Source of the DNA: Rhodospirillales bacterium
Lineage (GTDB): Bacteria; Pseudomonadota; Alphaproteobacteria; Rhodospirillales; 2-02-FULL-58-16
Length of the DNA: 18,288 nt
NCBI GenBank assembly: GCA_021775195.1
Contig: JAJFIG010000001.1
Location: 1-18,288 of the forward strand
Direction: 5' to 3'
Position 1 is the stretch's first letter, and the number at the start of each line of letters is the position of its first letter. The notes beneath the pieces are model-generated. The model made no database searches and had not been told where the DNA came from. It saw only the letters and a program-made list of their open reading frames with translations. The position numbers and the translations under genes are program-made. Shown one piece after another: positions 1-18,021 of the stretch.

Positions 1-459
1 ACCCCCGATCCCAAGGAGGCCCTGAACAGCATCGATTATATGAGCAACGAGATCCCACTCGGGGGGCTGGTCAGAAACATGCACCGATGGGGCGCGACGC
101 TGTTGCTGGCGTCGGTCTTCACCCACCTGGTCACCGTGTTCTATCGCAAGGCATACCGTAATCCCCGGGAATTCAACTGGATTTCCGGCGTGCTCCAGTT
201 CTTCGTCGTTTTCATGCTCGTGCTCAGCGGCATCATCCTGCCCTGGGACTGGCGCGCCTACTGGTCCTATGCGATCTGGGTCGATTACGTCGCCACCTGG
301 CCGCTGGTCGCCGAGTTCATGAAGAACTTCGTCCTCGAAACCTTCACCATTTACCGAAGCTTCATCACCCACATCGTGATCCTGCCCCTGATTCTGTTCG
401 CGCTCCTCGGTTTCCATTTCAAGATGGTGAGGAAACACGGCATTTCGGAACCTTTGTAG
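1..459 (+). CDS. Cytochrome b6-type subunit (N-terminal half of a split cytochrome b), 5' partial
   Basis: The reading frame is open from base 1, and the residues before the first ATG (base 40) already match the family, so the gene starts outside the window. This is the diheme membrane subunit of a quinol:cytochrome c oxidoreductase. Numbering from the ATG at 40, the heme ligands are His15/His29 (14 apart) and His111/His126 (15 apart). The second spacing is that of cytochrome b6 rather than mitochondrial-type cytochrome b. An LPWDWRAYW motif lies at about 68-76, and the chain ends RKHGISEPL, very like the b6 C-terminus. The next gene, 21 bases on, supplies the subunit-IV half. A Rieske protein gene is expected just upstream. 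The family call is firm; the physiological partner is unknown. Confidence 0.93.
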   Translation, partial: TPDPKEALNSIDYMSNEIPLGGLVRNMHRWGATLLLASVFTHLVTVFYRKAYRNPREFNWISGVLQFFVVFMLVLSGIILPWDWRAYWSYAIWVDYVATWPLVAEFMKNFVLETFTIYRSFITHIVILPLILFALLGFHFKMVRKHGISEPL

Positions 460-480
460 GAACGGCGGGGAAAACAGGGC

Positions 481-1158
481 ATGACCGACAAGCAACCGGA
501 CCTCATTCGTGATCCGAAATACGATCCACCCTATCCGCAGGATTTCCACCGCTTCTGGCCGCGCCACGTGCTCAAGACCCTGTTCGTCAGCGCCGTCACG
601 ATCGCCCTGGTGGTCGGCCTAGCCTATTTCTACCCCATACCGTCCGACGTCAACATGCCGCCGCTTCCCACCGAGGGGGAGTTCATTCCGGCCCCCGAGT
701 GGTATCTGATCTACATTTTCCAGCCGTTCTGGTACCTGACCGGCGAGGCCGCCGCGTGGCGGTCACTGGGAACCTTCTGGGCCCCCCTCGTCATCCTGCT
801 GGCGGCGTTCGTCCTGCCCTTCGTCTTCGGCCGCAAGAAGGCCTCCGGCAAACGATTGCCGGCCGGGGTCAAGCTGCTGATGGGAGCCGGCGCCCTGGCG
901 ATCTGGGTCGGCATGACGGCCAGCGTGTTCAACATCGCCTATCCCGCCAAGAGCGCCGGCTGCACCTCGTGCCACAACCCGATGATGGGCGTAAGGCAGG
1001 CACTGCCGCCCGCCGACATGGCGAAGTACTACAAAGGATCCCGGCAGATGCAGATCAACGTCGGCGGCTACCGGGCCGGCTCGACGGGCGTTGCGGAATC
1101 GTACAAGGACGCGAACTGGCAGTTGAGGCACTACTTCGAGCCGACCATGACGTGGTAG
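481..1158 (+). CDS. Cytochrome b C-terminal (subunit IV-like) protein fused to a C-terminal c-type heme domain
   Basis: 225 aa. The first 120 residues resemble subunit IV of b6f complexes: a hydrophobic helix at about 33-52, the quinol-site PEWY motif at 72-75, and a second helix at about 100-117. A third helix (about 130-152) then leads to a single c-type heme motif, CTSCH, at 161-165, followed by about 60 residues ending in an aromatic tail (HYFEPTMTW). The heme c should face the positive side and accept electrons in place of a separate cytochrome f or c1. It follows the b6-type gene by 21 bases, with an AGGG-type ribosome site before the ATG. The end of the protein is clearly related to the end of the fused cytochrome b at 10789-11931. 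Confidence in the family and fusion is high. Confidence 0.92.
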   Translation: MTDKQPDLIRDPKYDPPYPQDFHRFWPRHVLKTLFVSAVTIALVVGLAYFYPIPSDVNMPPLPTEGEFIPAPEWYLIYIFQPFWYLTGEAAAWRSLGTFWAPLVILLAAFVLPFVFGRKKASGKRLPAGVKLLMGAGALAIWVGMTASVFNIAYPAKSAGCTSCHNPMMGVRQALPPADMAKYYKGSRQMQINVGGYRAGSTGVAESYKDANWQLRHYFEPTMTW

Positions 1159-1163
1159 ACCCT

Positions 1164-2408
1164 GTGCAAACCTGTCGTCACTTTCGGGGTCGGCGGCCCG
1201 AACCGGGGCCCTGGGTGGCCGGCCTGCTTTTATGCCTTTTGCTGGCCGCGGTGCCGTTGCGGGGCGGGGCGGACGCGCAGACCGCGGATCCCGTGATCCA
1301 GGAATTCGCCGTCCCTGACGGGATCAGTTCCCCGCATTCCATCGCGGTGGGACCGGGCGGCAACGTGTGGTTCACGGAAAAGGTCGGGAAGAACCTCGTC
1401 ATGTTCGACCCCGAGCGGAAAACGTTCGAGGCTCATCCCCTCCCGTCCGACTGGGGCGACGTCGGACCATCGCGGATCGCCATCGCACCCGGCGGAAGGA
1501 TTTGGTTCAATGTTCGTCGATGGGCCAATTCCGACGATGATACATGGTTCCTCGGCCGGCTCGACCCGGCCACCGGTTCGTTTCGGCGACATCTCCTTGC
1601 GGATACGGACGCGGCCAAGGGCCACGTTTCACCGGATGACCTGATCGTCGACCGAAAGGGGCTGGTCTGGTTCCTGTCTCCGGAGGAAAACAAGCTCTAT
1701 AGCTTCGAGCCCGATACCGCCGGTCTACAGGGATACCCGATTCCGACGCCCAACAGCTATCCCAAGGGGATCGCCATCGACGGCAGCGACACCATCTGGT
1801 TTGCCGGGGCCAACGCCAACACGGTCATCAAGTTCGTTCCCGCCGACGCCGCATTCAGCGAGTACGCGATCCCGACACCCTTTGCCAATCCGGAAACGCT
1901 GACCGTCGATGGAGGGGACAGGGTCTGGTTCGTTGAACTGCGAACCAACCGGCTCAGCGTCTTTTATCCGGAAACGGAAAGGTTCTATGAAGCCGTGATC
2001 CCGACCGCAGGAGGCCTTCCCAGCGCCATCGCGGCCGGCGGTAGCGGCGGGATCTGGTTCCTGGAGTATATGGGCAACAAAGTCGGCGTCTTCGATCCCG
2101 GTCCGGCACGGTTCAAGGAATTCGACATCCCCACCTATGCCAGCCTTCCCGGAGATATGGCGATCGACCTCCCACGGGATCGCCTTTGGTTCTCGGAAAC
2201 CAGTACGGAGGCGAAAAGGCTGGGGATGCTTACCATGGCCCGAGCGCGAACGACGACGCCCGCGGCTGCGGCCGGGACCGGTTCAGGCGGCGCATCGACG
2301 GCGTCTCCCGAGGGATTTTCGACCTCCCTCGCCGTTTACGCTGCGGTGGCCCTGCTGGCCGTCTTCGCCGCATTGTTCGTGTTCTGGCGGCTGCGAACCG
2401 GGCAATGA
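1164..2408 (+). CDS. Membrane-anchored streptogramin-lyase-like seven-bladed beta-propeller protein
   Basis: 414 aa from a GTG at 1164. GTG at 1152 or 1215 is also possible, none has a good ribosome site, and the frame's longer upstream extension only shadows the cytochrome gene. A basic stretch and hydrophobic segment (about 18-31) form a signal peptide, probably cleaved near ADA (36-38). Seven repeats follow, each with a strand-turn motif of the form IWF-x-E and an F-D/Y-P ending, as in virginiamycin B lyase (Vgb). A Thr/Ala/Gly-rich linker then leads to a C-terminal helix (about 389-408) and RLRTGQ, so the propeller should sit outside the inner membrane. The Glu-x-His catalytic pair expected of Vgb is not seen after any WF-x-E turn, so antibiotic cleavage is unlikely. 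The gene is 5 bases after the cytochrome gene and overlaps the next propeller by ATGA, which suggests a role with the bc complex. Confidence 0.85.
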   Translation: MQTCRHFRGRRPEPGPWVAGLLLCLLLAAVPLRGGADAQTADPVIQEFAVPDGISSPHSIAVGPGGNVWFTEKVGKNLVMFDPERKTFEAHPLPSDWGDVGPSRIAIAPGGRIWFNVRRWANSDDDTWFLGRLDPATGSFRRHLLADTDAAKGHVSPDDLIVDRKGLVWFLSPEENKLYSFEPDTAGLQGYPIPTPNSYPKGIAIDGSDTIWFAGANANTVIKFVPADAAFSEYAIPTPFANPETLTVDGGDRVWFVELRTNRLSVFYPETERFYEAVIPTAGGLPSAIAAGGSGGIWFLEYMGNKVGVFDPGPARFKEFDIPTYASLPGDMAIDLPRDRLWFSETSTEAKRLGMLTMARARTTTPAAAAGTGSGGASTASPEGFSTSLAVYAAVALLAVFAALFVFWRLRTGQ

Positions 2409-3406
2409 GGGACACGGCCATTGCAATTGCGGCGTTCGCCGCCCTGCTGGTTTCCCCATTCGCCGCCGTCGGCGCGTTCGACTGGAACCTCGAGACCTAT
2501 CCCGTGCCGACCCATAACGCGTTGCCGTCCAGGATTGCCATCGATCCGAGCTGCGGCATCTGGGTCCTTGAAGCCAACGCCAACAAACTGGGCAAATTCG
2601 ACCCTGGAAAAAAGGCCATCACCGAATACGAGATCCCGACCTCCCGAAGCTTCCCTTCCGACCTCACCGCCGACAAGGCGGGGATGATCTGGTTCGTCGA
2701 GCAGGACGCCAATCAATTGGGCCGGTTCGACCCGGCCGCCAACTCGTTCAAGGAATTCGACATCCCGACCATCAACAGCGTCCCCCGCCGGATCGGCAGC
2801 GATGACAACGGCCTTATCTGGTTCACCGAGTTCTTCGGCAACAACCTCGTCAAATTCGATCCCCGGGCCGAGAACTTCACCGAATATCCCATCCCCACTC
2901 CCAACAGTCAGCCGACGGGCCTGGTGATCGACGCGACGGGCGTCATATGGCTCATCGAATCCCAGGGAAACAAGTTGGCCTCGTTCGATCCGGCAAGTGG
3001 AAAATTCAAGGAATTCGACTTTCCCGAACCGTTCCTGGTGCCCAAGGACCTGGTTCTCGATCACAACGGACTGATCTGGTTCGGCGGCCGCAGGAACAGC
3101 AAACTCATGATGTTCAACCCTTCGAACGGAAGCTTCGAGGGATTTGCCCTCCCCGTTAGGGGGGTCGTCGAGGGATTGGCCGTCGACGGGCCTGGAAACG
3201 TCCTGTTTTCGCTGGGCCATGTGGGCAAGCTCGGGGCCATGAATTCGGTTTCCAGGGAATTTCTCGAGTTCAAGGTCGTGCTGGGGAAAAGCGAGCCAAA
3301 CGATATCGAGGTCGATTGCGACGGCAATATCTGGTTCACCGACATCTCGCAGAACGCCCTGAACAAGCTGCGCGGCGAGGACCTCCTGGGTCTGTGGCTG
3401 AAGTAG
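2405..3406 (+). CDS. Periplasmic streptogramin-lyase-like seven-bladed beta-propeller protein
   Basis: 333 aa. The start at 2405 is chosen because its ATGA overlaps the previous stop and it opens with a clean signal peptide (hydrophobic 5-22, Ala-rich cleavage region near 20-24). Seven propeller repeats follow, with turns such as IWVLEANAN, IWFVEQDAN, IWFTEFFGN and IWFTDISQN, mostly followed by F-D-P. Unlike its neighbour it has no C-terminal helix, so it should be soluble in the periplasm. The mature chain has only two cysteines, Cys50 in blade 1 and Cys305 in blade 7, at equivalent places, so they could form a disulfide closing the ring. The Vgb Glu-x-His pair is absent. Function is unknown; it may be a partner or scaffold of the cytochrome complex. 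Confidence 0.85.
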   Translation: MRDTAIAIAAFAALLVSPFAAVGAFDWNLETYPVPTHNALPSRIAIDPSCGIWVLEANANKLGKFDPGKKAITEYEIPTSRSFPSDLTADKAGMIWFVEQDANQLGRFDPAANSFKEFDIPTINSVPRRIGSDDNGLIWFTEFFGNNLVKFDPRAENFTEYPIPTPNSQPTGLVIDATGVIWLIESQGNKLASFDPASGKFKEFDFPEPFLVPKDLVLDHNGLIWFGGRRNSKLMMFNPSNGSFEGFALPVRGVVEGLAVDGPGNVLFSLGHVGKLGAMNSVSREFLEFKVVLGKSEPNDIEVDCDGNIWFTDISQNALNKLRGEDLLGLWLK

Positions 3407-3605
3407 GTTCCGCGTCCCGGTCTATCGCAGTTTTGCGGCCTTTCGAACAATGCGGCGGGAAAGTACGTGCCCGCAGAACCCTTGACCAAAATCAAGGCGG
3501 CCATATTAAATCTATGGGCAAGTCGTAGGTGCATTTTCTCGTATTCGACAGCGGGTCCGTTAAGCGTATCCGAAAGTTGGCTTTGATTTACGGGGGGTAC
3601 TTTTG
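3407..3605 (+). other. Intergenic region between the propeller and cytochrome c genes
   Basis: 199 bases with no credible gene. It holds an FNR-like operator (3482-3495), an A/T-richer stretch after it, and a G-run (3592-3597) serving as the ribosome site of the next gene. Only weak short hairpins are seen after the upstream stop. This is the most likely internal promoter of the plus-strand block. Confidence 0.6.
3482..3495 (+). promoter_or_regulatory. FNR/CRP-family operator (TTGAC-N4-ATCAA)
   Basis: TTGACCAAAATCAA matches the FNR/Anr/Dnr consensus TTGAT-N4-ATCAA at 9 of 10 defined positions. It lies about 110 bases before the cytochrome c start. The same variant, with GGC directly after it, occurs once more in the divergent intergenic region at 16471-16484. 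No convincing -10 element is seen at the ideal class II distance. Regulator identity is inferred. Confidence 0.6.
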
Positions 3606-4544
3606 ATGAATAAGTTGATCATATGGGCGGCGGCGTTGGGCATCGCGACGGCAATGTCGGCGTCATCCGAATCATTCGCGGCGACGGCAAGGTGTCAGCT
3701 TAACGACGGCACACGAGTGGTTTGTCCGGTCCGCACCGATGCAGAACTGGAAGCCGCCGGTGCGGCCTATGAGGCAGAGGCCCATCAGATGTCTTCCGGC
3801 GAGTCCGGCAGCACCTACGGCGTGGCTCCCTTCGACTACCTGACCGGTGTCGGCAAAAGGAACGAAGGCACTACGCTCACGAAGGGCGACAGCGGCTACG
3901 GCGGCAAAGGCGGCAAAACCGAATTGTGGGACCGGGTCAAGAAACCGTCCGATGGCGAGTCCGTTTACAACCAGTGGACCAATAACTGGTCACCGTCGTT
4001 CAGTACCACAATGGTTCCAGGCGCCGACCCCAATGAAGGCAAGCAGTGGTACTACGTCTATTGCATTACCTGCCACGGCTGGGGCCTGCGGGGCGACGGG
4101 CCGAGCGCCGCGGAGATCGATCCGCGACCGCGCGTCCTGACCAAGGGCGATTACATGAACAATAAGTCCAATCTGCAGCTGTTCTCGGTGATCAAGGGCG
4201 GCGGCGAAGCCGTCAACCTGTCGTCGTCGATGCCGGCTTGGGGCAATTTCCTGCAGGATCAGGACATCTGGAATGTCGTTGCCTGGCTCCGGATGATGGC
4301 GGACGCCAAAGTGCCGACGACGATCGAGGAATACCTGAACCCGAAAACGACGTTCAAACCCATCGACGGCGATGTCGATGCCCTGACGGCAGCCAAGGAT
4401 GAGGACTTCCAGGATGCCCAGGAAATGAACGAACTGTCGCTGGCCGGGCGTGGCAAAGGCGAGCTTAAGGGCGGCGGCTACGTCGAAGGCGGCTTGCGCA
4501 AGAAGCCCGGCGAGGTCGCTGATAAGGTCAAGAAGGGATATTGA
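3606..4544 (+). CDS. Periplasmic monoheme cytochrome c
   Basis: 312 aa from the ATG at 3606; a TTG directly before it is the alternative. A run of six Gs eight bases upstream acts as a ribosome site. The signal peptide spans about 1-26 (cleavage near SFA-A). A cysteine pair follows at 30 and 40 and could form a disulfide. A Gly/Ser-rich region without a recognised fold precedes a class I cytochrome domain: CITCH at 153-157 and a likely axial Met209 in SSMPAWG. The lysine-rich tail (about 260-312) looks disordered. It probably shuttles electrons from the cytochrome b/c complex. It is preceded by an FNR-like box, which suggests oxygen- or NO-responsive expression. The N-terminal extension makes it longer than a typical small cytochrome c. 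Confidence 0.88.
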   Translation: MNKLIIWAAALGIATAMSASSESFAATARCQLNDGTRVVCPVRTDAELEAAGAAYEAEAHQMSSGESGSTYGVAPFDYLTGVGKRNEGTTLTKGDSGYGGKGGKTELWDRVKKPSDGESVYNQWTNNWSPSFSTTMVPGADPNEGKQWYYVYCITCHGWGLRGDGPSAAEIDPRPRVLTKGDYMNNKSNLQLFSVIKGGGEAVNLSSSMPAWGNFLQDQDIWNVVAWLRMMADAKVPTTIEEYLNPKTTFKPIDGDVDALTAAKDEDFQDAQEMNELSLAGRGKGELKGGGYVEGGLRKKPGEVADKVKKGY

Positions 4545-4623
4545 GCCCGGAACATCCACGCCACTGGAAAGTTCCGGCGAAAGCGCAGAGCTCATGTTCC
4601 GCGGCAATCATCGTTTTGTTCTA

Positions 4624-4672
4624 GGGGGAAGGGACGCTGGAAGCAGGAGCGCCACTGACCCCCTCTTTTTTT
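4624..4672 (+). terminator. Possible weak intrinsic terminator or attenuator
   Basis: GGGGG (4624-4628) can pair with CCCCC (4659-4663), with a short GC-rich inner stem between, and the structure is followed at once by TCTTTTTTT. It lies in the 150-base gap between two cytochrome c genes. It may trim expression of the downstream seven-gene block relative to the periplasmic cytochrome. The stem is imperfect, so the call is tentative. Confidence 0.35.
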
Positions 4673-4694
4673 GTCAGGCGGAAAGTAACGGGAG

Positions 4695-5237
4695 ATGAGG
4701 AAGGGTTGGATCATTGCGGTGGTTTCGTTTGCTGCGGTTCTAGGCGCGGCCGTCTTGATCGTCTTCGTCCCTAACGTCCTGGGCAGGGAAATCATCAAGG
4801 AAGCCAAGGCCATGGGGTATATCGCCTATACCCCGGAAGAGGCCGTCGCGCTTGCCTACGAAAGATGCTCGACCTGCCATACAGAAGAAAAGATGCTGAG
4901 GTACTGTTCCCGGTGCGGGCCGCCGTTCATCGTCGTCGCCCACTTCATGAAAAAATACACCGAGATCACCAACGCCCAGAATAAGGGCATCAATCTGAAA
5001 CAATACAGCGACGCGGAAATCGTCGCCATCGCCCAAGCCTGGAACGCCATGATCGGCAACTGGGAGAGCGATTGGCCCGAAAAGGATCTGCGAAAGCTCC
5101 TCGACCAGGATCAGGCCTTGATCGATCTGCTGGCTACACCGGTCGAAAAGAGACCGATCGAAACGGCGCTCAAGGGCAAGCAGGCGCCCGGCTCCTATCA
5201 GCGCTACGGTCTCGGGAAAAGCGACAAGAAACCATGA
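4695..5237 (+). CDS. Membrane-anchored c-type cytochrome with an extra CxxC
   Basis: 180 aa. An uncleaved-looking N-terminal helix (about 5-26) anchors a periplasmic domain. The heme motif is CSTCH at 58-62. Nine residues later comes CSRCG (71-75), a CxxC that lacks the ligand His; it could bind a metal, form a disulfide or be a decayed second heme site. The rest is helical and charged, including an AQAWNAMIGNWE segment. The ATG at 4695 is the first in-frame start after a stop, but the GGGAG beside it is too close to be an ideal ribosome site. Its stop overlaps the ATP-binding gene by ATGA, so a cytochrome opens the ABC operon. No close family is recognised. Confidence 0.8.
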   Translation: MRKGWIIAVVSFAAVLGAAVLIVFVPNVLGREIIKEAKAMGYIAYTPEEAVALAYERCSTCHTEEKMLRYCSRCGPPFIVVAHFMKKYTEITNAQNKGINLKQYSDAEIVAIAQAWNAMIGNWESDWPEKDLRKLLDQDQALIDLLATPVEKRPIETALKGKQAPGSYQRYGLGKSDKKP

Positions 5238-6175
5238 TCGAAGTAGAGGATCTGACCAAGAGTTACGGTTCACATCTTGGCATCGACGGCTTGACCTTTT
5301 CGGCGCAGAAAGGCGAGACCATCGGGTTTCTCGGCCCCAATGGCGCCGGAAAGACGACGACGATGCGCATCCTCACCTGTTTCTTTCCCGCGACATCGGG
5401 AAAGGCCGTGGTCGCCGGCTACGACTGCTTCGAGGATTCCTTCGAGGTACGCAAACGGGTCGGCTACCTGCCCGAAAGCGTGCCCCTGTACGGCGACATG
5501 ATCGTCGACGACTACCTGGCCTTCGTCGCCGGCATCAAGGGCGTGGAGAGCAAGGCGGTCAAGCAAACCGTCACCCGAACCATGGGTGACTGCGGCCTCG
5601 ACGCCGTCGCCGGACGGCCGATCAGAGAGCTTTCCAAGGGCTACAGGCAGCGGGTGGGACTGGCCCAGGCGTTGGTCAACGACCCCGAGATCCTTATTCT
5701 CGACGAACCCACCAACGGGCTCGATCCCAAACAAATCAAGGAAATTCGCAAGCTGATCAGTGCCTTGGCACAGCAACGCACGATCATCCTCAGCACCCAT
5801 ATCCTGCCCGAGGTGAGCATGGTCTGCGAACGCGTGGTCATCATCAACAAAGGCAAGCTGGTGGCGGTGGATAGTCCTGAAAACCTGACCGCCAACCAGC
5901 GCGACTCGTCGCGGATCTTTCTTCGGATCGCCGGTGATGGAGAGCAGATCATCAAGGCGCTCCGCGAGATCAAGGGGTTGAAGAAGGTCGACCCGGCGCC
6001 GGCGGCCGACGGCGGCAACGCATTTATCGTCGAACTGGCGGACGGGGCGGACGGCGAACAGAGCATCCTTCCCATCATCGTGAGCAACAGCTGGAAACTG
6101 ACCGAGATGCGCTCCGTGGAGACCAGCCTGGAGGATGTCTTCATTCAACTCGTGACCGAAGAGGACGGCGTGTGA
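5234..6175 (+). CDS. ABC transporter ATP-binding protein (GldA-like)
   Basis: 313 aa. The ATPase has every motif: Walker A GPNGAGKTT (34-42), signature LSKGYRQR, Walker B ILILDEPT and the switch His in LSTHIL. After the nucleotide-binding domain (about 1-220) comes a C-terminal extension of about 90 residues, ending in TSLEDVFIQL, typical of ATPases paired with ABC-2 permeases such as GldA. The start at 5234 overlaps the cytochrome c stop (ATGA) and the end overlaps the permease (GTGA). The ATPase acts on the cytoplasmic face with the next gene product. The substrate is unknown; NosF was considered, but the neighbours are GldF/GldG-like rather than NosY. Confidence 0.95.
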   Translation: MIEVEDLTKSYGSHLGIDGLTFSAQKGETIGFLGPNGAGKTTTMRILTCFFPATSGKAVVAGYDCFEDSFEVRKRVGYLPESVPLYGDMIVDDYLAFVAGIKGVESKAVKQTVTRTMGDCGLDAVAGRPIRELSKGYRQRVGLAQALVNDPEILILDEPTNGLDPKQIKEIRKLISALAQQRTIILSTHILPEVSMVCERVVIINKGKLVAVDSPENLTANQRDSSRIFLRIAGDGEQIIKALREIKGLKKVDPAPAADGGNAFIVELADGADGEQSILPIIVSNSWKLTEMRSVETSLEDVFIQLVTEEDGV

Positions 6176-9514: not shown

Positions 9515-9523
9515 TTTCACGCG

Positions 9524-10792: not shown

Positions 10793-11931
10793 TGAAGGTG
10801 CAAATAGAGCTCTATCACTGGCGTCACTACTTCGGTGGTGTCGCGGTTGTCCTACTCGTCGCGCAATTCTCCACCGGCATATTTCTGGGCCTGTTCTATC
10901 AGCCCGATCTGCAACAGGCCTATGCCAGCGTCCAGGGCCTCTATCGGGACGGTAGCGTCGGCGCCTGGATCAGGGACGGCCACCGCTGGCTGGCGTTCTT
11001 CATTTTCGCCGCGATCGTCGTGCACGTGGCGAGAAGCCTGCTCAGAAAGGATTTCCTGAACTATCTACGCAAGAGGTCCTGGCTCACCGGCGGGCTGCTG
11101 ATGCTGCCGATCCTGGCCCTGATGGTCACCGGTTTCATCCTGCCCTGGGAATGGAGGGCCTACTGGTTCATGGAGATGGTGCCCAACTACCTGGGCTCCA
11201 TCCCGCTCGTCGGACCGGCATTGAAAGCCTTTCTGATCGACGCCTTTACGCTCAGCCGGAATTTCATCGCCCATGTGGTGATCCTGCCGGTAGTCGCCTA
11301 CATCCTCATCGATTTCCATATCCTGGCGATGTTGCGGAGGAGAAAGACGCCGATTGGAAAATACCTCGCCAAGCACGCGATGATCACCATCCCCTTCTTC
11401 ATCGCCGTCGCGGCGCTGGCGGTCACCATCCCCATGCCGACCGAAGACCCGGACGTTATCCCGATGCCGCTCGAGGGCGCAAACATTCCGACAGCAGAAT
11501 GGTATTTCCTGTTCCTGCTGCGCCCGTTCCTGGATTTCGAAAAAGCCGTGGCGCCGTTTTTTGGCATCTACCTGCCCCTGGCACTTCTTGTCGTCCTGAT
11601 CGTCCTGCCGTACCTCTTCAAGGGCAGGAATAAAGTGCGGCCGGAAGGCGGCTCCCTGTCGCGTTCCATGGCCAGGCTGATGAAGAAAAAGATGGTCGGG
11701 GCGGCGGTGTCCGTCCTGGTCGTTTTCTTCGTAGCCGGCGCGGCGTTCGGGGTGCTTTACGCGGAAACCCACGAATCTCCCACCCTGGGCTGCAACTCAT
11801 GTCACAACATATCGATGGGAGTCCGCATGGGCATACCGCCGAAAGCCTTCAAGGACCGGAAAATCATCCCCCTGGTGGATGACAACCGCTGGATGGTCGA
11901 ACACTGGTTCTATCCGCAGGTGGCCTGGTAG
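10789..11931 (+). CDS. Fused cytochrome b (b6 + subunit IV) with C-terminal c-type heme domain
   Basis: 380 aa. The N half carries heme ligands His65/His79 and His162/His177, the b6-type spacing, plus LPWEWRAYW (118-126). The C half carries the quinol-site motif as AEWY (236-239) instead of PEWY. A final helix (about 302-324) leads to CNSCH (335-339) and the tail HWFYPQVAW. The cysteine that covalently holds the extra heme ci/cn in cyanobacterial b6 aligns with Tyr14 here, so that heme is not expected to be covalently bound. The ATG overlaps the preceding gene (ATGA). It is a paralogue of the split pair at 1-1158, with the same heme c tail. No Rieske gene is seen with it. Its 3' end overlaps the opposing gene by 22 bases. 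Confidence 0.93.
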   Translation: MMKVQIELYHWRHYFGGVAVVLLVAQFSTGIFLGLFYQPDLQQAYASVQGLYRDGSVGAWIRDGHRWLAFFIFAAIVVHVARSLLRKDFLNYLRKRSWLTGGLLMLPILALMVTGFILPWEWRAYWFMEMVPNYLGSIPLVGPALKAFLIDAFTLSRNFIAHVVILPVVAYILIDFHILAMLRRRKTPIGKYLAKHAMITIPFFIAVAALAVTIPMPTEDPDVIPMPLEGANIPTAEWYFLFLLRPFLDFEKAVAPFFGIYLPLALLVVLIVLPYLFKGRNKVRPEGGSLSRSMARLMKKKMVGAAVSVLVVFFVAGAAFGVLYAETHESPTLGCNSCHNISMGVRMGIPPKAFKDRKIIPLVDDNRWMVEHWFYPQVAW

Positions 11932-12125
11932 CGATCCCTTCGCTTCTGTATGGCCCCGACGACGAAAAGAGTGGTGCCGGCGCCGATCAGGAAGAGGAAA
12001 AAACCGTCCACCGGGATCCCGGTTATCAGGTTCATGACGGTATCGACAATCCCGAGCACGGCGAGAACGGCGCCGAAGGCCTGTTTCTTGAAACCAGCGG
12101 GGAGCTTGCGGATGGTCGTGGTCAT
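11910..12125 (-). CDS. Small two-helix membrane protein of unknown function
   Basis: 71 aa. Two hydrophobic segments (about 17-36 and 42-59) are separated by a short polar turn, and the C-terminus is basic (QKRRDRYQ). Its ATG overlaps the stop of the upstream CcdA-like gene (ATGA on the minus strand), which supports it as a real, coupled last gene of the operon. It runs into the convergent cytochrome b gene by 22 bases, and no terminator hairpin separates the two. It is not recognised. It may be an accessory subunit of the membrane thiol-redox system. Confidence 0.65.
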   Translation of the reverse strand: MTTTIRKLPAGFKKQAFGAVLAVLGIVDTVMNLITGIPVDGFFLFLIGAGTTLFVVGAIQKRRDRYQATCG

Positions 12126-12823
12126 CCGGCCAGAAAGCCCAGAAAGAACGCCTTGTAGTAGATCATCGTTCCGCTGAGGTTGAGGGCGGCAAGAAAGGCG
12201 AGGACGAGGCCGCAGGCGTTCCGTGCCATGGCCGGATGGCGCCCGACGACACCGACCCTTGCCAGCAGGTAAACCAGGGCGGCTCCCGTGACCGTCAGGC
12301 CGAGGCAGATGCCGAGGGCATAAAAGAAGGCGAGGGTGCCACCCCGCACGGCCGTTTCGGGCCGGCCGGCCATGCCCAGAATGTCCGACAGCGCCGGCGT
12401 GATGCAGGGCGAGTAGACGAGGGCGAAAGCGCTGCCCAGGGCGAGGGAGACGCCCGCCAGGACAAGCGGCCGACGCAGGAATCCGATGACCGGGAACCGG
12501 CCCGAAAGCAGCAGCGAAAGACTGGCGAGCAGGATATAGCCGCCGGCGATGAACTCGAGGGTGCCGAGGTTATAAACCAGCGCGCGGCCGATGGGCAGCC
12601 CGGCGACGGTCAACAAGGCATAGATGACGGCAAAACCGGGAGCGAAGGAGAGCGCCGGAAGAAGGACACGGCCACCTAGGCTGGCTTCGGCTCTCGGTGA
12701 ATTGGCGGTGAAATAAAGACCGGTAACATAGGCCAGGAAAAAGGGTGTGATCTGCAGGATGCAAACCTGCCAGATCGAAAAGAAGGACGAGAAGCCGTGG
12801 CCGAACGCGTCGAGGTTTCCCAT
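12122..12823 (-). CDS. ccdA: CcdA/DsbD-type thiol-redox membrane protein
   Basis: 233 aa from the ATG at 12823, which shares a base with the preceding TAA; a GTG 21 bases upstream is the alternative. Six helices are expected. The two redox cysteines of the family are present: Cys21 in WQVCILQITPFFLAYV (helix 1) and Cys140 in VYSPCITPAL (helix 4), the second being the typical S-P-C-I-x-P motif. Such proteins pass electrons from cytoplasmic thioredoxin to periplasmic TlpA/CcmG-like proteins for heme ligation or copper-site reduction. Helix 1 lacks the usual Pro-Cys-Val-Leu-Pro wording (here V-C-I-L-Q), so it is a divergent member. Two thioredoxin-fold genes lie directly upstream. Confidence 0.87.
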   Translation of the reverse strand: MGNLDAFGHGFSSFFSIWQVCILQITPFFLAYVTGLYFTANSPRAEASLGGRVLLPALSFAPGFAVIYALLTVAGLPIGRALVYNLGTLEFIAGGYILLASLSLLLSGRFPVIGFLRRPLVLAGVSLALGSAFALVYSPCITPALSDILGMAGRPETAVRGGTLAFFYALGICLGLTVTGAALVYLLARVGVVGRHPAMARNACGLVLAFLAALNLSGTMIYYKAFFLGFLAG

Positions 12824-13344
12824 TACAACAGCTCGCTCGTCCACTTGAAGAAATCGTCCTCCTTGTCCTTGATGTTGCCGTAGAACACCCGCCTGACCGT
12901 CCCTTCCCTGTCGATGAATACGGTGGTCGGCGGCGCCGATATCCCGTAAACGCGGGCGATCTTGTCGCCGTCATCGTAACCCACGGGAAAAGGGACCCGC
13001 CATTTGCCGGCGACGTCCGCGAACTTCTGCTCCGGGCTTTGGATGCCGATCATCAGGAAGGCGACCTTGCTTTCCGTCCCGCTGTTGTAGCGTTTGTAGG
13101 CCTCCTTGATGAACGGAATGGAGTCCTTGGAGCACGGGCACCAGGAGGCCATGAAGGTGATGACCTGGGCCTGGCCGGGATGATCCGTAACTTCCCTGGT
13201 CTCGCCGGTGAGCAGGGTCAGGGTGGAAGGCGGAGCCATTGCGCCGATCCTGAGCGGGTTCACGTTCTCCTCGAAACAGCCCGTCAGCAGAAGGCCGAGG
13301 AAAACGACGACGACCGGAACGCTAAAGTATCTTGTCCAGTTCAT
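12823..13344 (-). CDS. Thioredoxin-fold lipoprotein with CPC active site
   Basis: 173 aa. A signal peptide with lipobox LLTGC puts lipid on Cys23. The thioredoxin fold is evident from VITFMASWCPCSKDSIPF and the cis-proline strand APPTTVFIDREG. The active site reads Trp-Cys-Pro-Cys (Cys69 and Cys71), one residue shorter than the usual CxxC, and the bases read cleanly. This resembles redoxin-like proteins more than classical TlpA. The start overlaps the upstream lipoprotein gene by 23 bases, with GAGGA as a possible ribosome site. It is probably exported and lipid-anchored. A role in thiol reduction or copper handling for the neighbouring cytochromes is likely; peroxidase activity is possible. 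Confidence 0.85.
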   Translation of the reverse strand: MNWTRYFSVPVVVVFLGLLLTGCFEENVNPLRIGAMAPPSTLTLLTGETREVTDHPGQAQVITFMASWCPCSKDSIPFIKEAYKRYNSGTESKVAFLMIGIQSPEQKFADVAGKWRVPFPVGYDDGDKIARVYGISAPPTTVFIDREGTVRRVFYGNIKDKEDDFFKWTSELL

Positions 13345-13807
13345 GTTTGATCAGTTCCTCTGTCAGGGCCCCTGAATGGGTGTAGGTGATCAGGCCGTTC
13401 CCATTGATGAAGAAGGTCGTGGGAAGGCCATACACACCGAAGGACCCCTTGATTTTTTCGTCCTTGTCGAGCCCCGTGGGAAAGCTCAGCCCGTACTTCT
13501 TGACGAAGCCCCGGGCCTCGGAATCCGTATCCTTGATGGCGATACCCAGAAAATTCACCTTTTTTTCGATGTATTCCTGATGGACCGTCTCAAGCGCCTT
13601 GGCCTCGGCGCGGCAGGGAATGCACCACGAGGCAAAGAAGTTGACGACCACGGCGTCGCCTTTGTGCTTGCTCAGGGTGAACGTCCGGCCATCAAACAGA
13701 TGCAGGGTGAAGTCGGCGGCAACTTCCGGATCGGCCATTTCGTCGCAGCCCTGGGCCAAGGGCATCAGGAGGACGAGCAGCAAGGGGATCAGCGCGCGCC
13801 TAATCAC
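13322..13807 (-). CDS. TlpA/ResA-like thiol-disulfide lipoprotein
   Basis: 161 aa from a GTG with a good upstream ribosome site (GAGGGGAG, 7 bases). The lipobox LAQGC places lipid on Cys21. The thioredoxin domain has WCIPC (61-65) and the cis-proline motif GVYGLPTTFFI near 129-139. It should reduce apocytochrome CxxCH cysteines or metal-site cysteines in the periplasm, re-reduced by the CcdA-like protein. It is 3 bases after the preceding gene. Its last 40 residues closely match the lipoprotein at 16606-17124 (both end ELDK-I/L-L after GLPxTFFI), so the two are paralogues. Confidence 0.9.
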   Translation of the reverse strand: MIRRALIPLLLVLLMPLAQGCDEMADPEVAADFTLHLFDGRTFTLSKHKGDAVVVNFFASWCIPCRAEAKALETVHQEYIEKKVNFLGIAIKDTDSEARGFVKKYGLSFPTGLDKDEKIKGSFGVYGLPTTFFINGNGLITYTHSGALTEELIKHELDKIL

Positions 13808-13810
13808 GGT

Positions 13811-14683
13811 TCAGCTCCCCTCTCCCGCCGTATTGGTGACAAGCGCGGCGTCCGGGATCGGCAGGCGCCAGTGAAATACCCGTTCGCGCATGGCCGGCGG
13901 CCGGATCACGATTTCCAGGGTACCGGCCTGTGCGCCGCCACCGTCCGCGATGGCGGGAAACGCCAGAATCCCCTGCCTGTGGTGCTGTTGCCCGTCCTCA
14001 TAGAGCACCTGCCAAGTTGTTGCCTTCGCTTCATGTTTACCATCGATCCGGATGGCGGCGATGTCGGCGAGGTTCCAGCGCGGGAGGATGCCGGTGTGGG
14101 TATTGACGTAGACGATGAACAACGTCTCGTCGCTGTCCCGCGGTTTGCTCTTGAACGCCAGATACGGCATCAGATGGCGGTACCCCGCAGGCAGATAGAT
14201 GATGTCGAAGTAGAGGTCGCTCTCGCCGAAATCCAACCGCCATAAATGCTTCTTGACGAAACGCATGGTCGCGTCCGGCAGGATTGTCGGCACGTTGGAA
14301 AGGTAGTTTCTTTGCAGGTATTCGGTGATCGTTCGGGCCTCGGTTCCGGTAAGGTCGGCCTTCGCCTGCTTCTTCATGCGGGCGACGATCTGGCCCCATT
14401 CCAGGGCGGTGCGGGGGGTCTTTTCGATGACGTCCTTGCCGTGGCACCTCCTGGTACAGGCGGAACGGTAAAGGCGCCGGGTTTCCCCCGCGGTGAGTCC
14501 GTCGAAAAGATCGTATCGGTGCAGCAGCAACCTGCCCGTGGACGCCAGGTATTGCAGCCGGCCACCGGGGCCGGGTTCGATCATGACGACGAAGGCCAGA
14601 AACGAGATCGTTCCCAGGACAAGCGTGAACAGGGCAAGGCTGAGCATGAGAAGCCTCGCCCTAGACGGGAGCCCGGGTGACAT
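13811..14683 (-). CDS. Membrane-anchored periplasmic protein with CxxxCH heme-like motif
   Basis: About 290 aa. The start is uncertain: ATG at 14683 gives a basic N-terminus (SRAR) before the anchor helix (about 13-34), while ATG at 14647 has the better ribosome site (GGGCGAGG). GTG 14710 is also open. After the anchor comes CTRRCHGKD (Cys76, Cys80, His81), a CxxxCH spacing in place of CxxCH, followed by a helix of the EWGQIVARMKK type often found after heme motifs in cytochromes c. The C-terminal 150 residues are beta-rich and His-containing, and I do not recognise them. The gene lies between the CcmH-like and TlpA-like genes and is likely part of the same maturation or electron-transfer unit. 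Confidence 0.78.
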   Translation of the reverse strand: MSPGLPSRARLLMLSLALFTLVLGTISFLAFVVMIEPGPGGRLQYLASTGRLLLHRYDLFDGLTAGETRRLYRSACTRRCHGKDVIEKTPRTALEWGQIVARMKKQAKADLTGTEARTITEYLQRNYLSNVPTILPDATMRFVKKHLWRLDFGESDLYFDIIYLPAGYRHLMPYLAFKSKPRDSDETLFIVYVNTHTGILPRWNLADIAAIRIDGKHEAKATTWQVLYEDGQQHHRQGILAFPAIADGGGAQAGTLEIVIRPPAMRERVFHWRLPIPDAALVTNTAGEGS

Positions 14684-15107
14684 ATCGTCTAACACCATAA
14701 TAGATGCCACCTATGAAAATGAGCGCCCAGAACGCGATACCGGCCCACAGCATAGCCCAATCGGTTGTGCCAAACCCTCTCGTGTACTGGAAAATCTTGC
14801 CGTCGATCCTTTGCAGCATGGTGAGACGCGCTTCTTCGCCATATGTGGCGATGAAGTAGTCCATGATCTCCTGCTTGGTCTTGCCCGCCTTGACCATTTC
14901 GCCGATTTCTTCCTTCCAGTCGAGACCACAGGTCATGTTGCAGTCTTCCAGGATCAGCGGGCATTCGCAGGGGCAGGCGAGGTCCCTTGCCACCTCGCCG
15001 ACGGTCAGGGCGCGGGCACCCGTGGGCAGGAGAACCAGAACCGCCAGCAGCAATGCCATGAAAAGGCCGTGCCGGCGCTTGAACGGTTCGACCCTGGTTT
15101 CGGCCAT
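14661..15107 (-). CDS. CcmH/NrfF-like cytochrome c maturation protein with five-cysteine motif
   Basis: 148 aa from the ATG at 15107, with GGGAG seven bases upstream; a GTG one codon earlier overlaps the preceding stop as well. A signal-peptide-like helix (about 14-30) precedes the domain LACPCECPLILEDCNMTCGL and a three-helix region with VKAGKTKQEIMDYFIATYGEE, which matches the CcmH fold. One C-terminal helix (about 117-137) ends in basic residues. Classical CcmH has LRCxxC; here cysteines are at 45, 47, 49, 56 and 60. In the family the thiols hold apocytochrome cysteines for heme attachment. No CcmF or CcmG accompanies it here apart from the TlpA-like genes. The cysteine pattern could instead bind metal. 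Confidence 0.83.
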   Translation of the reverse strand: MAETRVEPFKRRHGLFMALLLAVLVLLPTGARALTVGEVARDLACPCECPLILEDCNMTCGLDWKEEIGEMVKAGKTKQEIMDYFIATYGEEARLTMLQRIDGKIFQYTRGFGTTDWAMLWAGIAFWALIFIGGIYYGVRRYVTRAPV

Positions 15108-15883
15108 CACGCCGCTCCCTTCCTTCGCCGTCTGGTCACGATCCAGAGCATGGCGGCTGACACCATCAAGACGCCGGTTCCGAAGACGATGTAGATAATG
15201 GTCCTGACGTTGCGCTGGGTCTCATAGGGTGAGCCCCAGACCCGGCGCCCGGTCATGGAGGCATATTTGACATCGACCGACGGTTCCCTGCTTTCCTTTA
15301 CGTAACCGATCTTGAAGACCCGGGCATCGCCCTTGGCGATGTCTTCGAGGGTGTAGTTGAAATGGTTGAAGTCCTTTTCCATTGATGCCTTGCCGCCGGA
15401 CGGAGAAATGGCGAATTCGGTCGACCGCAAGGGCTGCTGAATGTCCACCTCCATACTGCCGATGGGATGATTGGCCCGGATGACGTAGTCGATCCGCCGT
15501 TTCGCGGTTTCGAGGTCGACGGGGTCTAGATGAAAGCTGACGTAGAAATTCGAGAACGGCAGGGATAGGTGCACCGTATCGTAGGCCTCGCCCTCGCTGA
15601 CGTCGAAGAGTTGGCAGAAATGCTGTCCTCCCGGCGACAGGCTGCAGATATCGTTGATGATCGCGCCCTTGGGAATGAAGAAATCGGTGATGGTGGGGAA
15701 TTTCGAGTCGTCGTCAAAGCGGCCGTCATAGACCACAAGAACGCTGGGATCGTCGTACTCGGGCCAGATCATGACCCTCATCCGGCCGATCGACAGACCG
15801 TCCTCCGCCGGCGCTTTCGTCGCCAAGAGCGGAAACATCAGCAAGATCAGGACGAGACTGGATATCAGGACCCTTGTGCGCAT
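15107..15883 (-). CDS. Unknown membrane-anchored periplasmic protein
   Basis: 258 aa from the ATG at 15883, which opens directly with a signal peptide (MRTR, hydrophobic 5-21, cleavage near APA-E); the frame extends upstream without signal-like character. The middle (about 30-220) is predicted to be beta-rich, containing IWPEYDDPSVLVVYDGRF, two cysteines (80, 90) that may form a disulfide, and an Ig-like or transthyretin-like feel. A C-terminal helix (about 228-249) ends TRRRRKGAA on the cytoplasmic side. I do not recognise a family. Its stop overlaps the CcmH-like start (TGATG), and a small cytochrome c precedes it by about 95 bases, so it probably acts on cytochrome or metalloprotein assembly. 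Confidence 0.8.
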   Translation of the reverse strand: MRTRVLISSLVLILLMFPLLATKAPAEDGLSIGRMRVMIWPEYDDPSVLVVYDGRFDDDSKFPTITDFFIPKGAIINDICSLSPGGQHFCQLFDVSEGEAYDTVHLSLPFSNFYVSFHLDPVDLETAKRRIDYVIRANHPIGSMEVDIQQPLRSTEFAISPSGGKASMEKDFNHFNYTLEDIAKGDARVFKIGYVKESREPSVDVKYASMTGRRVWGSPYETQRNVRTIIYIVFGTGVLMVSAAMLWIVTRRRRKGAA

Positions 15884-15978
15884 TGCAAATTTCTGCCCCC
15901 GCCAAAAGCCGCCCGGGGCCAGGGGACGGCTTTGCATGAAGATGAACCAATCATCTGGTTCCAATGTTCGTATTGCTC

Positions 15979-16401
15979 CTAGTTCTTCTTGAACTCACAC
16001 TTGCAAACCTCTTTCCTCAGGTAGGTAACGACGTTGCCGATCTCCTCATCGCTCAGCTGCCCTTTGAAGGGGGTCATGTTCTCGGTCAGACCGACGGAGT
16101 GGCCACCTTCCTTGATGACCTTGAAGAGATGCTTGTCCGGCTTCGAAGTCATGAACGTGGCGTCCGTAAGGTTCCTGGGCTTCACATCAAGGCTTTCGGC
16201 CAGCATGCCGTCTCCCTTTCCCTCGGCGCCATGGCAAGGCAGGCAGTAGCTCATGAAATTGCCGGCGCCGGATGTGTTCCCGGCGCTCCATGCACCAGCG
16301 CTTGTCGGGTCGGTCTTCTCCCCGGCGTTCACCTGGGTCATGGCGAACAGTCCGGCACCCAGCAGTACCGCCAAGAACAACGTACGACTGATTGATTCCA
16401 T
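15979..16401 (-). CDS. Small periplasmic class I cytochrome c
   Basis: 140 aa. Signal peptide about 1-26 (cleavage VNA-G). The heme motif is CLPCH at 53-57, and the sixth ligand is probably Met109 in ENMTPFKG, followed by the typical last helix (SDEEIGNVVTYLRK). The chain ends with a Cys-Lys-Cys pair (133-135), which is not usual in class I cytochromes. A ribosome site of five Gs lies about 13 bases upstream, rather far. It is the first gene of the minus-strand operon, about 76 bases from the centre of an FNR-like box. It probably carries electrons between the bc complex and an unseen terminal enzyme, or serves the maturation genes behind it. Confidence 0.92.
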   Translation of the reverse strand: MESISRTLFLAVLLGAGLFAMTQVNAGEKTDPTSAGAWSAGNTSGAGNFMSYCLPCHGAEGKGDGMLAESLDVKPRNLTDATFMTSKPDKHLFKVIKEGGHSVGLTENMTPFKGQLSDEEIGNVVTYLRKEVCKCEFKKN

Positions 16402-16442
16402 GATTGGACACTACCCCCTTCTAAACCCAGAATCAGCCTTAG

Positions 16443-16448
16443 AACCTA
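16443..16448 (-). promoter_or_regulatory. Candidate -10 element (TAGGTT) of the minus-strand operon
   Basis: On the minus strand TAGGTT begins 22 bases after the FNR-like box, exactly the gap expected for class II activation (box centred at about -41.5). It would give a leader of roughly 35 bases before the cytochrome c start. Spacing is the main support. Confidence 0.45.
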
Positions 16449-16470
16449 CCCTGGATCGGTGATGCGGCAC

Positions 16471-16484
16471 TTGACGGAAATCAA
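16471..16484. promoter_or_regulatory. FNR/CRP-family operator (TTGAC-N4-ATCAA) between divergent operons
   Basis: TTGACGGAAATCAA is the same one-mismatch variant seen at 3482-3495, also followed by GGC. It sits between the minus-strand cytochrome c operon (16401) and the plus-strand TlpA gene (16606). Its distance to a minus-strand -10 element fits activation of that operon; control of the plus-strand genes is possible but less clear. Confidence 0.65.
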
Positions 16485-16605
16485 GGCCTAGAATGAATCA
16501 GGATGGCAGATTAGGGTGCTGTATTTTCTGAAAAATTCCGGTTTTTCCTTTCGGAATTCACCGGGAAAGCGCCAGCAAGAGGCATTGGCCAAGGCAACCG
16601 ACCGA

Positions 16606-17124
16606 ATGTATCCCCGATCACGAACACAATTTCCGCGGCTTGTCCTGTTTCTTTGCATCACGCTCGTCCTTCAAGGCTGCGGAGAAGGGGACGGCGGCGG
16701 CGGCGCGGCCGACCGGAGTTTGGCACCCGATTTCGAACTGACCCAGTTTGACGACGGCGGCAGCTTCCGGCTCAGTGAATACAAGGGGAATCCTGTCGTG
16801 ATCAATTTCTTCGCCTCGTGGTGCACGACCTGCGGGATCGAGGTGAACGACCTTGAAACGGTCTACCGGGAATTCGCCGCAAGGAAGGTGATGTTCGTCG
16901 GCGTCGGCATCGACGACACCGAGGCCAAGGCACGCAAATACGTGGCGAAATACGGGATTACCTATCCGACCGGCCTCGATGCGACGGGAACGATAAAAAA
17001 GGACTACGGCATTTACGGCCTGCCCTACACGTTCTTCATCGACCGCAAAGGCTTCATCACCTACATCCACGCCGGCGCCGTTACCGCGGCGCTGCTGAAA
17101 TATGAACTGGATAAACTTCTCTGA
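16606..17124 (+). CDS. TlpA/ResA-like thiol-disulfide lipoprotein
   Basis: 172 aa. The ATG at 16606 is chosen because it opens a lipoprotein signal (basic N-terminus, hydrophobic 11-23, LVLQGC with lipid on Cys25); an earlier GTG in frame at 16516 adds residues with no signal character. A Gly-rich spacer is followed by the thioredoxin domain with WCTTC (72-76) and the cis-proline motif GIYGLPYTFFI near 139-149. Closely related to the lipoprotein at 13322-13807. It probably reduces cysteines of apocytochromes or of copper sites. It comes 32 bases before the SCO-like coding region, a pairing typical of CuA-site assembly. Confidence 0.9.
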   Translation: MYPRSRTQFPRLVLFLCITLVLQGCGEGDGGGGAADRSLAPDFELTQFDDGGSFRLSEYKGNPVVINFFASWCTTCGIEVNDLETVYREFAARKVMFVGVGIDDTEAKARKYVAKYGITYPTGLDATGTIKKDYGIYGLPYTFFIDRKGFITYIHAGAVTAALLKYELDKLL

Positions 17125-17141
17125 CGGACAGCGCCGGGGAA

Positions 17142-17148
17142 AAGGAGG
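17142..17148 (+). promoter_or_regulatory. Strong ribosome binding site deciding an unusual start
   Basis: AAGGAGG is a full Shine-Dalgarno match. Eight bases later lies ATC at 17157, exactly where an ATG would be expected for the SCO-like gene. No ATG, GTG or TTG exists in this frame between the preceding stop and base 17283. Confidence 0.75.
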
Positions 17149-17156
17149 ACCGACCG

Positions 17157-17825
17157 ATCACAAGATTCCGCATCGCCATCCTTGTCATCGTTCTCGGCCT
17201 CGGCCTCGCCGCCGGGGCTCTGGGCTACCTCGTCTACATTGACGAGCCGGTCCAACAGGCGGAGACGATCGATCCCATAACCATGTTCCCGCCCGGGGGA
17301 CCGTTCACCCTTGCCGGTCATGACGGGAAGACGGTCACCGACAGGGACTACCTGGGCAAGTTCATGCTCATCGCCTTCGGCTACACCTATTGTCCGGATG
17401 TCTGCCCGACCGGCCTGCAGTCCATGAGCGTGGCCCTGGACATGTTGGGCGAGCAGGCAAAGTGGGTACAGCCGATCTTCGTCACCGTCGATCCCGAGCG
17501 CGATACGCCCGAAGTGATGAAGGAGTATGTGTCCGCCTTCCATCCCAGCTTCATCGGCCTCACCGGGACGCCGGAGCAGATCGCCCAGGCCGCCAAGGGG
17601 TTTCGTGTCTATTACAACAAGTCCCGCCTGCACGACAAAGAAGGAGAGGACAAGGACGACGACGATTACTTTGTCGACCACACGGCGTCGATCTATCTGG
17701 TCGGCATCGACGGCAGGGGACTGGCGGTCTTCAACTTCGGCATGGCGGCGACGGCGGTCGAGGAGATCGCCGACCGGATGCGGCATTTCATCAATATCCA
17801 AGAGGCCCTTGCCAAGGCCAAATAA
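17157..17825 (+). CDS. SCO1/SenC/PrrC-like copper chaperone with apparent ATC start
   Basis: 222 aa if read from ATC at 17157. This start includes the membrane anchor (FRIAILVIVLGLGLAAGALG, about 4-23) that SCO proteins need. The first ordinary start, ATG 17283, would remove the anchor but keep the copper domain. The copper site is YCPDVC (Cys79, Cys83) with His175 in DYFVDHTAS. A very acidic insert (about 161-170) precedes the His. SCO proteins deliver copper to, or reduce, the CuA centre of cytochrome oxidases and related sites. Gene order TlpA-SCO supports this. Either an AUC start is used or one base is wrong or mutated. Confidence 0.88.
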   Translation: MTRFRIAILVIVLGLGLAAGALGYLVYIDEPVQQAETIDPITMFPPGGPFTLAGHDGKTVTDRDYLGKFMLIAFGYTYCPDVCPTGLQSMSVALDMLGEQAKWVQPIFVTVDPERDTPEVMKEYVSAFHPSFIGLTGTPEQIAQAAKGFRVYYNKSRLHDKEGEDKDDDDYFVDHTASIYLVGIDGRGLAVFNFGMAATAVEEIADRMRHFINIQEALAKAK

Positions 17826-17914: not shown

Positions 17915-17985
17915 CATGGTGGGCGCGGCTGGGCCCCCGCGCGCAGGCGCGGTATTGGAAGAGTTAATCCCAGGCCGAAACGAGC

Positions 17986-18020: not shown

Positions 18021-18021
18021 A

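Follow-up and report, generated by a model that had tools for sequence, protein, structure and literature searches.

A conserved electron-supply and maturation gene set very probably belonging to a clade III (lactonase-type) N2O reductase gene cluster

The classic nos clusters of clade I and clade II NosZ carry NosDFYL. The menaquinol:cytochrome c reductase QcrBC has an architecture in which cytochrome b6 is split from a subunit IV that bears a c heme. A further clade of the N2O reductase, the lactonase-type clade III (L-NosZ), was reportedly described by He et al. in 2025 (Nature 646:152), and this enzyme class is already in print. N2O reductase is the enzyme known to convert N2O to N2 (excerpts of PMC13122619). 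As a related example, the Nitrospirota metagenome-assembled genome (MAG) nzgw271 has a nosZ-like gene that encodes a lactonase-type propeller together with a cupredoxin, and additionally carries nosDFLYX; the excerpts of this 2024 paper state that the function of such lactonase-type proteins requires experiment (PMC11033732). Excerpts of later papers treat clade III as an N2O reductase (PMC13122619, PMC13274427). For this recent clade III enzyme, no description of the accessory set reported below, or of its assembly and electron-supply needs, was found in the excerpts of PMC13122619, PMC11033732, PMC13274427, PMC12569097 and PMC13033781; He et al. 2025, outside that scope, may hold one.

The stretch of DNA analysed here (the window) is an entire 18.3-kb contig (G000:C1) of an incomplete MAG. 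Its 21 genes, none of whose reading frames is interrupted, very probably make up that half of a clade III L-NosZ gene cluster which serves electron supply and maturation. The initial annotation listed cytochromes b/c, three further CxxCH proteins, a CxxxCH protein, CcmH-like and CcdA-like proteins, three thioredoxin-fold proteins, a SCO protein, two propellers and a GldAFG-like set, all of which are present, and it was also right that the window lacks a catalytic subunit of a known terminal enzyme. It went too far in calling the module self-contained, since the contig cuts off the end at which L-NosZ stands in the most similar locus found (in genome G001). Since the contig extends no further than the window, the left edge marks where the assembly broke, within a cytochrome b gene. 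The view that the gene set matches no named respiratory complex is not supported either, as the module very probably is part of the clade III cluster.

The truncated gene (1..459, plus strand) has lost its first ~58 codons and encodes a cytochrome b of the b6/QcrB-like type (PF13631, 80 bits; PF00033, 77 bits), 93% identical to a 210-aa protein of G001. It is followed on the same strand by a QcrC-like protein (481..1158), a subunit IV whose C-terminal part is a monoheme cytochrome c; it has no Pfam match but a CxxCH at residue 161, with C161/C164/H165 and an EWY motif conserved in 9 sequences. This split arrangement, with the c heme at the end of subunit IV, is what the window shares with QcrBC and cytochrome b6f. 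The difference is the Rieske protein, as Pfam scans detected its domain neither among the window's genes nor in the pair of genes preceding cytochrome b in G001. A second unit, also on the plus strand, is a fused cytochrome b - subunit IV - cytochrome c (10789..11931; PF00033, 96 bits), whose PDB match is cytochrome b6 (E = 5e-35) and whose C-terminal CNSCH motif is invariant in 32 sequences (alignment A2, 32 of the 120 proteins listed). Both cytochromes b come closest, within NCBIfam, to ExtP (NF040969), the b-type cytochrome of a selenite/tellurite reduction operon, but at 143 and 112 bits neither reaches the cut-off of 290, the first being a fragment, and identity with ExtP was rejected on these scores. 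Between the two units lie two Vgb-type beta-propellers (1164..2408 and 2414..3406, both plus; PF24684, 129 and 166 bits, cut-off 50), a monoheme cytochrome c (3603..4544, plus; PF13442, 41 bits) and a 180-aa protein of no assigned family (4695..5237, plus) with a CxxCH plus another conserved pair of cysteines (C58, C61, H62, C71 and C74 invariant in 8 sequences). Relatives of the monoheme cytochrome c adjoin L-NosZ in six loci (L015, L016, L017, L095, L096 and L097), in several directly after it. A small monoheme cytochrome c (15979..16401, minus; PF13442, 41 bits) stands further downstream.

The genes for an ABC system run on the plus strand from 5234 onwards and encode a GldA-like ATPase (5234..6175; TIGR03522, 320 bits, cut-off 402.6), a GldF-like ABC-2 permease (6172..6954; TIGR03518, 167 bits, cut-off 288.5) and a GldG-like auxiliary protein (6945..8564; PF09822, 100 bits; TIGR03521, 80 bits, cut-off 389.85). 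The gliding-type GldAFG system is the best-matching family for all three, but each stays under its curated cut-off, and the assignment to a Gld system proper was rejected for that reason. A DUF4340 protein (8558..9514, plus; PF14238, 128 bits, cut-off 25) and a periplasmic binding protein-like protein of the Peripla_BP_6 type (9524..10792, plus; PF13458, 168 bits) follow. In the census of relatives, labels are best BLASTP matches at E<=1e-4; the GldA-like calls in G012, G013 and G014 (3 of 11 in the census) are doubtful because identity is just 26-29%, and probably represent other transporters.

The genes that follow, up to 16401, lie on the minus strand. A CcdA-like thiol transporter (12122..12844) scores 23.7 bits against PF02683 (DsbD_TM), under the cut-off of 27.1, yet its two cysteines are kept in 96-100% of 24 sequences. 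Next to it are two TlpA-type proteins, a lipoprotein in which CxC (CPC) replaces CxxC (12823..13344, minus; PF00578, 54 bits; C69 and C71 invariant in 25 sequences) and a thioredoxin-fold protein with CxxC (13322..13807, minus; PF00578, 89 bits; C62 and C65 invariant, n = 27). The gene used here as the marker of the module encodes a CxxxCH cytochrome-like protein without a Pfam match (13811..14710, minus), in which an NTHxG / HHxQG C-terminal domain is conserved. Its C64, C68, H69, H184, H222 and H223 are invariant in 28 sequences (alignment A1, 28 of 120 listed proteins, including row P0210 despite an apparent frameshift). It scores 29 bits against the SorB model (cut-off 93), and a PDB profile search gave weak matches to the heme part only, the best (E = 0.0046) being subunit B of sulfite:cytochrome c oxidoreductase. 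A copper role for the C-terminal domain, through the invariant H184, H222 and H223, is a guess. A CcmH/NrfF-like protein (14661..15110, minus; PF03918, 36 bits, cut-off 25; five Cys invariant, n = 23) stands beside p285 (15107..15964, minus), a 285-aa membrane-anchored protein with no Pfam, NCBIfam or PDB match whose C107, H115 and C117 are invariant (n = 21), and which lies upstream of ccmH in every case where both were read. On the plus strand, a third TlpA-type protein (CxxC; 16516..17124; PF00578, 97 bits) is followed by a SCO1/SenC copper-site assembly protein (17166..17825; PF02630, 171 bits, cut-off 22.8) with the CxxxC...H pattern, C76, C80 and H172 being invariant in 20 sequences. For subunit IV, the 180-aa protein, CcdA, TlpA 1 and 2, CcmH, p285 and SCO, duplicates and sequences shorter than 60% of the window protein were dropped before residues were counted.

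The gene neighbourhoods of other genomes show that these blocks form a conserved unit, as the initial annotation supposed, with a linkage far beyond chance that is not confined to this genome. The order p285-ccmH-CxxxCH-TlpA-TlpA-ccdA is kept in 14 of 22 CxxxCH loci, some with an extra ORF in between, and in 2 more as far as the contig reaches; it departs in 6 (L006, L014, L018, L019, L021 and L025). Relatives of all 21 window genes are present in G001 and G011. In G001 the order is that of the window, starting with L-NosZ and a 222-aa protein of no recognised family, followed by cytochrome b, subunit IV, the propellers and so on to SCO. G597 has the marker block and L-NosZ in a single run together with cytochromes b/c, propellers and ABC genes; several other loci (e.g. 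L015-L018) showed no cytochrome b/c, propeller and ABC half in the vicinity of L-NosZ. As a conserved set of ~20 genes found in several proteobacterial groups, the module offers a testable parts list for the clade III N2O reductase, an enzyme that would remove a greenhouse gas.

A CuA-type target elsewhere had been predicted from the helper genes, and L-NosZ does adjoin the module in relatives. Among the neighbours suggested for a search, an N2O reductase type (L-NosZ) was found upstream of cytochrome b in G001, but a Rieske gene was not among the two genes scanned there. The G001 protein, which combines a beta-propeller with CuA, scores 788 bits against the clade III lactonase-type L-NosZ family (NF052460, cut-off 700). 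Its PDB match is N2O reductase (E = 2e-24), CuA domain included. All 9 members of an alignment of the linked enzyme (A3) match the family at E<=0.001, a score being given for one, and 6 of 7 L-NosZ from the second genome draw (395 genomes) are over the family cut-off. The window differs from this described system in holding accessory genes only. Starting from the module, 16 of 20 marker genomes gave an L-NosZ match at E<1e-60 (from 22 loci, L020 and L022 being omitted as the same assembly as L011), and in nine of these both genes are on one contig (G001, G002, G005, G011, G012, G013, G014, G016 and G019). The remaining four have weak matches only (G004 and G008) or none (G015 and G017). Starting from the enzyme, the marker occurs in 10 of 11 L-NosZ genomes over three draws, or 8 of 9 without two already known carriers: 2/2 in a family draw of 10, 2/2 in a phylum draw of 398 and 6/7 in the second draw of 395. 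One genome has L-NosZ without the marker (G442) and one the marker without L-NosZ (G256, apparently a duplicate of G004, with which it agrees in place and score, as G292 is of G013, the two agreeing in contig number and length). The marker is absent from all 18 phylum-draw genomes with only 30-36% NosZ-like matches, 15 of which have the canonical NosZ CuA motif. Lists of CxxxCH, fused cytochrome b-c and L-NosZ proteins share 10 and 7 contig sizes, a proxy only.

In comparison with the classic nos clusters, the end enzyme class is the same and an ABC ATPase, an ABC-2 permease and thiol and copper helpers are again present, but the window ABC genes are nearest to GldA/GldF, and NosL and NosD are absent or nearly so in the module genomes. 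The module kit probably replaces NosDFYL, because NosL was found in 0 of 20 module genomes and NosD is over its cut-off in 1 of 20, with weaker matches in 8 more; the window's own genome, G000, is one of these 20. This also sets it apart from nzgw271, which shares the lactonase-type propeller and cupredoxin but has nosDFLYX (excerpts of PMC11033732). In the mechanism proposed here, electrons would flow from quinol through the cytochrome b/c pair and the fused cytochrome b-c to the small cytochromes c, and on to CuA and CuZ of a periplasmic L-NosZ, which would reduce N2O to N2 in that compartment. The CcmH-like, p285, CcdA-like and TlpA proteins may keep the cysteines of apocytochromes and CuA reduced and aid heme attachment, including that of the CxxxCH heme, SCO and a TlpA would load CuA, and the GldAFG-like set with DUF4340 could take the place of NosFY(D). 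A wider reading, offered tentatively and with some doubt, is that L-NosZ is built and fed by dedicated machinery instead of NosDFYL. Copper would then arrive via the CxC thioredoxin-fold lipoprotein, SCO and the CxxxCH cytochrome with its three-histidine domain, a GldAFG-like ABC system would stand for NosFY, electrons would pass through cytochrome b/c units that have no Rieske protein beside them in the cluster, and CuA would have Met for one His. If this is true, it would represent a second solution to building an N2O reductase.

The methionine raises a sharp question about the CuA site, and it is one reason to consider that the linked L-NosZ-type protein, and the module with it, might serve a substrate other than N2O. 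In 121 L-NosZ sequences (one reference and the best 120 of 290 matches), one canonical CuA histidine, at the THGF position, is methionine in 121/121, whereas all 15 canonical NosZ loci whose motif could be read (of 18 examined) have His there; the caution in the 2024 Nitrospirota paper quoted above points the same way. In the same 121 sequences, however, H137, H138, H199, H223, H266, H321, H326 and H384, which include all candidate CuZ ligands, are invariant, as are C527, C531, H535 and M538 of the CuA region. Taken with the family score of the G001 enzyme and the usage of the later papers, this makes another substrate unlikely.

The preferred assignment to a clade III N2O reductase cluster also has to deal with the fact that searches of the MAG to which the window belongs did not find L-NosZ. 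A separate search of this MAG with PF02335 gave a single match, under the cut-off, and led no further. The module could be an orphan whose L-NosZ was lost and whose cytochromes feed something else, in line with the four other module genomes that lack a strong L-NosZ match. This is quite improbable, since the MAG is just 77.8% complete and in 569 contigs, the module reading frames are uninterrupted, and the contig breaks inside the very gene whose G001 counterpart is the second one after L-NosZ. From that arrangement, L-NosZ is expected ~1 kb outward of the left contig edge. Where a contig lacks the catalytic gene, as this one does, the set can serve as markers for clade III clusters. SCO and TlpA are helpers of oxidase CuA, and the MAG has a COX2 gene (contig C546, 186 bits), but it is highly improbable that an ordinary cytochrome c oxidase is fed by these cytochromes and has its CuA assembled by the kit. 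COX2 lies on a different contig and is very widespread (matched in 9 of 14 control genomes), whereas only 4 of the 398 phylum-draw genomes have the marker; COX2 was rejected as the target because the marker tracks L-NosZ.

We infer that the contig is the accessory part of a nitrous-oxide reductase cluster of a named clade, known in kind, and that the source genome possesses the catalytic gene, although searches of this MAG gave no match to it. PMC13122619 credits clade III N2O reductase to He et al. 2025; of real interest here are the set of parts, how well it is conserved and, in the genomes tested, the classic maturation genes that are missing (NosL) or rare above cut-off (NosD). The window's MAG is 77.8% complete, with 569 contigs totalling 3.27 Mb, and the window is one whole contig (G000:C1, 18288 bases), whose genes had been listed correctly in the initial annotation. 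The forward strand carries a cytochrome b cut by the contig start, a subunit IV-cytochrome c, two Vgb-type propellers, two CxxCH proteins, GldA/GldF/GldG-like ABC genes, a DUF4340 gene, a periplasmic binding protein and, after it, a cytochrome b-c fusion. On the reverse strand there are a CcdA-like protein, two TlpA-type proteins, the CxxxCH protein used as marker (13811-14710), a CcmH-like protein, a 285-aa protein of no matched family (p285) and a small cytochrome c, followed on the forward strand by a third TlpA-type protein and SCO.

The linked enzyme was identified in relatives. One related protein lies near the marker in four loci (585-592 aa, with a 399-aa fragment in L005). When three of these neighbours were scanned, two were above the nos_propeller cut-off and the fragment narrowly below it (29.8 vs 30), and Cupredoxin_1 was above cut-off in one. 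The protein from L015 matched N2O reductases in the PDB (E = 2e-24). In G001, which has the locus closest to the window, the linked protein is encoded upstream, with one gene between it and the cytochrome b where our contig begins, and gene order and orientation from cytochrome b to SCO are the same. NCBIfam identifies this protein as clade III lactonase-type nitrous-oxide reductase, L-NosZ (788 bits vs a cut-off of 700).

A search with the CxxxCH protein gave 130 homologues at E<=0.001, and an alignment of 28 of these led to 22 loci in genome contigs labelled Rhodospirillaceae, Gallionella, Mariprofundus, other Gamma- and Betaproteobacteria, unspecified Proteobacteria and one Deltaproteobacteria. 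The order p285-ccmH-CxxxCH-TlpA-TlpA-ccdA is kept in 14 of them, kept to the contig end in two and departed from in six. L-NosZ is found at E<1e-60 in 16 of 20 marker genomes, with weak matches in two (G004, G008) and none in two (G015, G017); both genes share one contig in nine. The assembly with prefix MGXK (G008), where L-NosZ matches are weak, has three copies of the CxxxCH block on three contigs (L011, L020, L022), and may be a mixed bin.

The link was also examined starting from the enzyme. In a family draw (10 genomes) the marker is present in both genomes with a strong L-NosZ match, and was not found in G029, which has a 33% match. In a phylum draw (398 genomes) both strong L-NosZ genomes (G066, G292) carry it, as do G000 and G256, which have no L-NosZ match; it is found in none of the 18 genomes with only 30-36% matches, at least 15 of which have canonical NosZ by motif. 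Among 395 genomes drawn around G018 the marker is present in six of seven L-NosZ genomes (exception G442). Pooled, this is 10/11, or 8/9 when two genomes are set aside: G018, whose selection rested on its marker, and G292, which appears to be the same genome as G013, known beforehand. G597 has L-NosZ immediately after the marker block; next come a small uncharacterised protein, cytochrome b, subunit IV, propellers, cytochromes and ABC genes.

In a census covering 23 genomes, and counting what the fetched stretches contain, CxxxCH was found in 22, ccdA in 21, p285 in 20, ccmH and L-NosZ in 19 each, SCO and the 313-aa cytochrome label in 16 each, and propeller 2 in 11, with five genomes having the fused cytochrome b-c; by these counts the maturation genes are conserved more consistently than those for electron supply. 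A cytochrome bd-like protein occurs in the fetched stretches of six census genomes, and its relative in L023 belongs to PF01654. In L094, L095, L096 and L099 it lies upstream of L-NosZ with further cytochromes c, an alternative electron-supply set.

Unlike classic nos clusters (NosDFYL), the genomes tested (the window's MAG plus 19 with L-NosZ, two of these apparently identical) gave NosL in 0/20 and NosD above cut-off in one, G003, with weaker matches in eight others; in G003, another NosZ match, of canonical-like type, lies ~3 kb from NosD. The NosDFYL work is presumably done by the window's kit, whose proteins have putative individual roles; the GldAFG-like ABC set would be the NosFY counterpart. 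Lactonase-domain nosZ-like genes are reported from Nitrospirota, where one MAG also has nosDFLYX (PMC11033732), in contrast to the NosL-free genomes here.

A PCu(A)C copper chaperone comes after SCO in six of 22 loci; one assembly supplies three of these. In the TlpA-type lipoprotein at 12823-13344 (reverse strand) CxC (CPC) replaces CxxC, invariant in 25 relatives, and this protein is perhaps a metal carrier, not a disulfide carrier. The C-terminal domain of the CxxxCH protein has, besides the heme site, invariant NTHxG and HHxQG motifs in 28 sequences, and their three histidines could bind metal. In the reference L-NosZ (L051:7037-8788, reverse strand) and the best 120 of 290 matches, C527, C531, H535 and M538 are invariant; the position of the first CuA histidine of NosZ (THGF) aligns with Met (TMGF) in all 121, whereas it is His in 15/15 canonical NosZ loci with a readable motif, of 18 examined. 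By these motifs L-NosZ is a possible CuA variant.

Beyond SCO lies a tRNA-Val (18022-18096, reverse strand), whose 3' end is overlapped by the second copy of a 37-nt direct repeat (17897-17933 and 18002-18038, 81% identical), possibly attachment-site-like or a terminator duplication.
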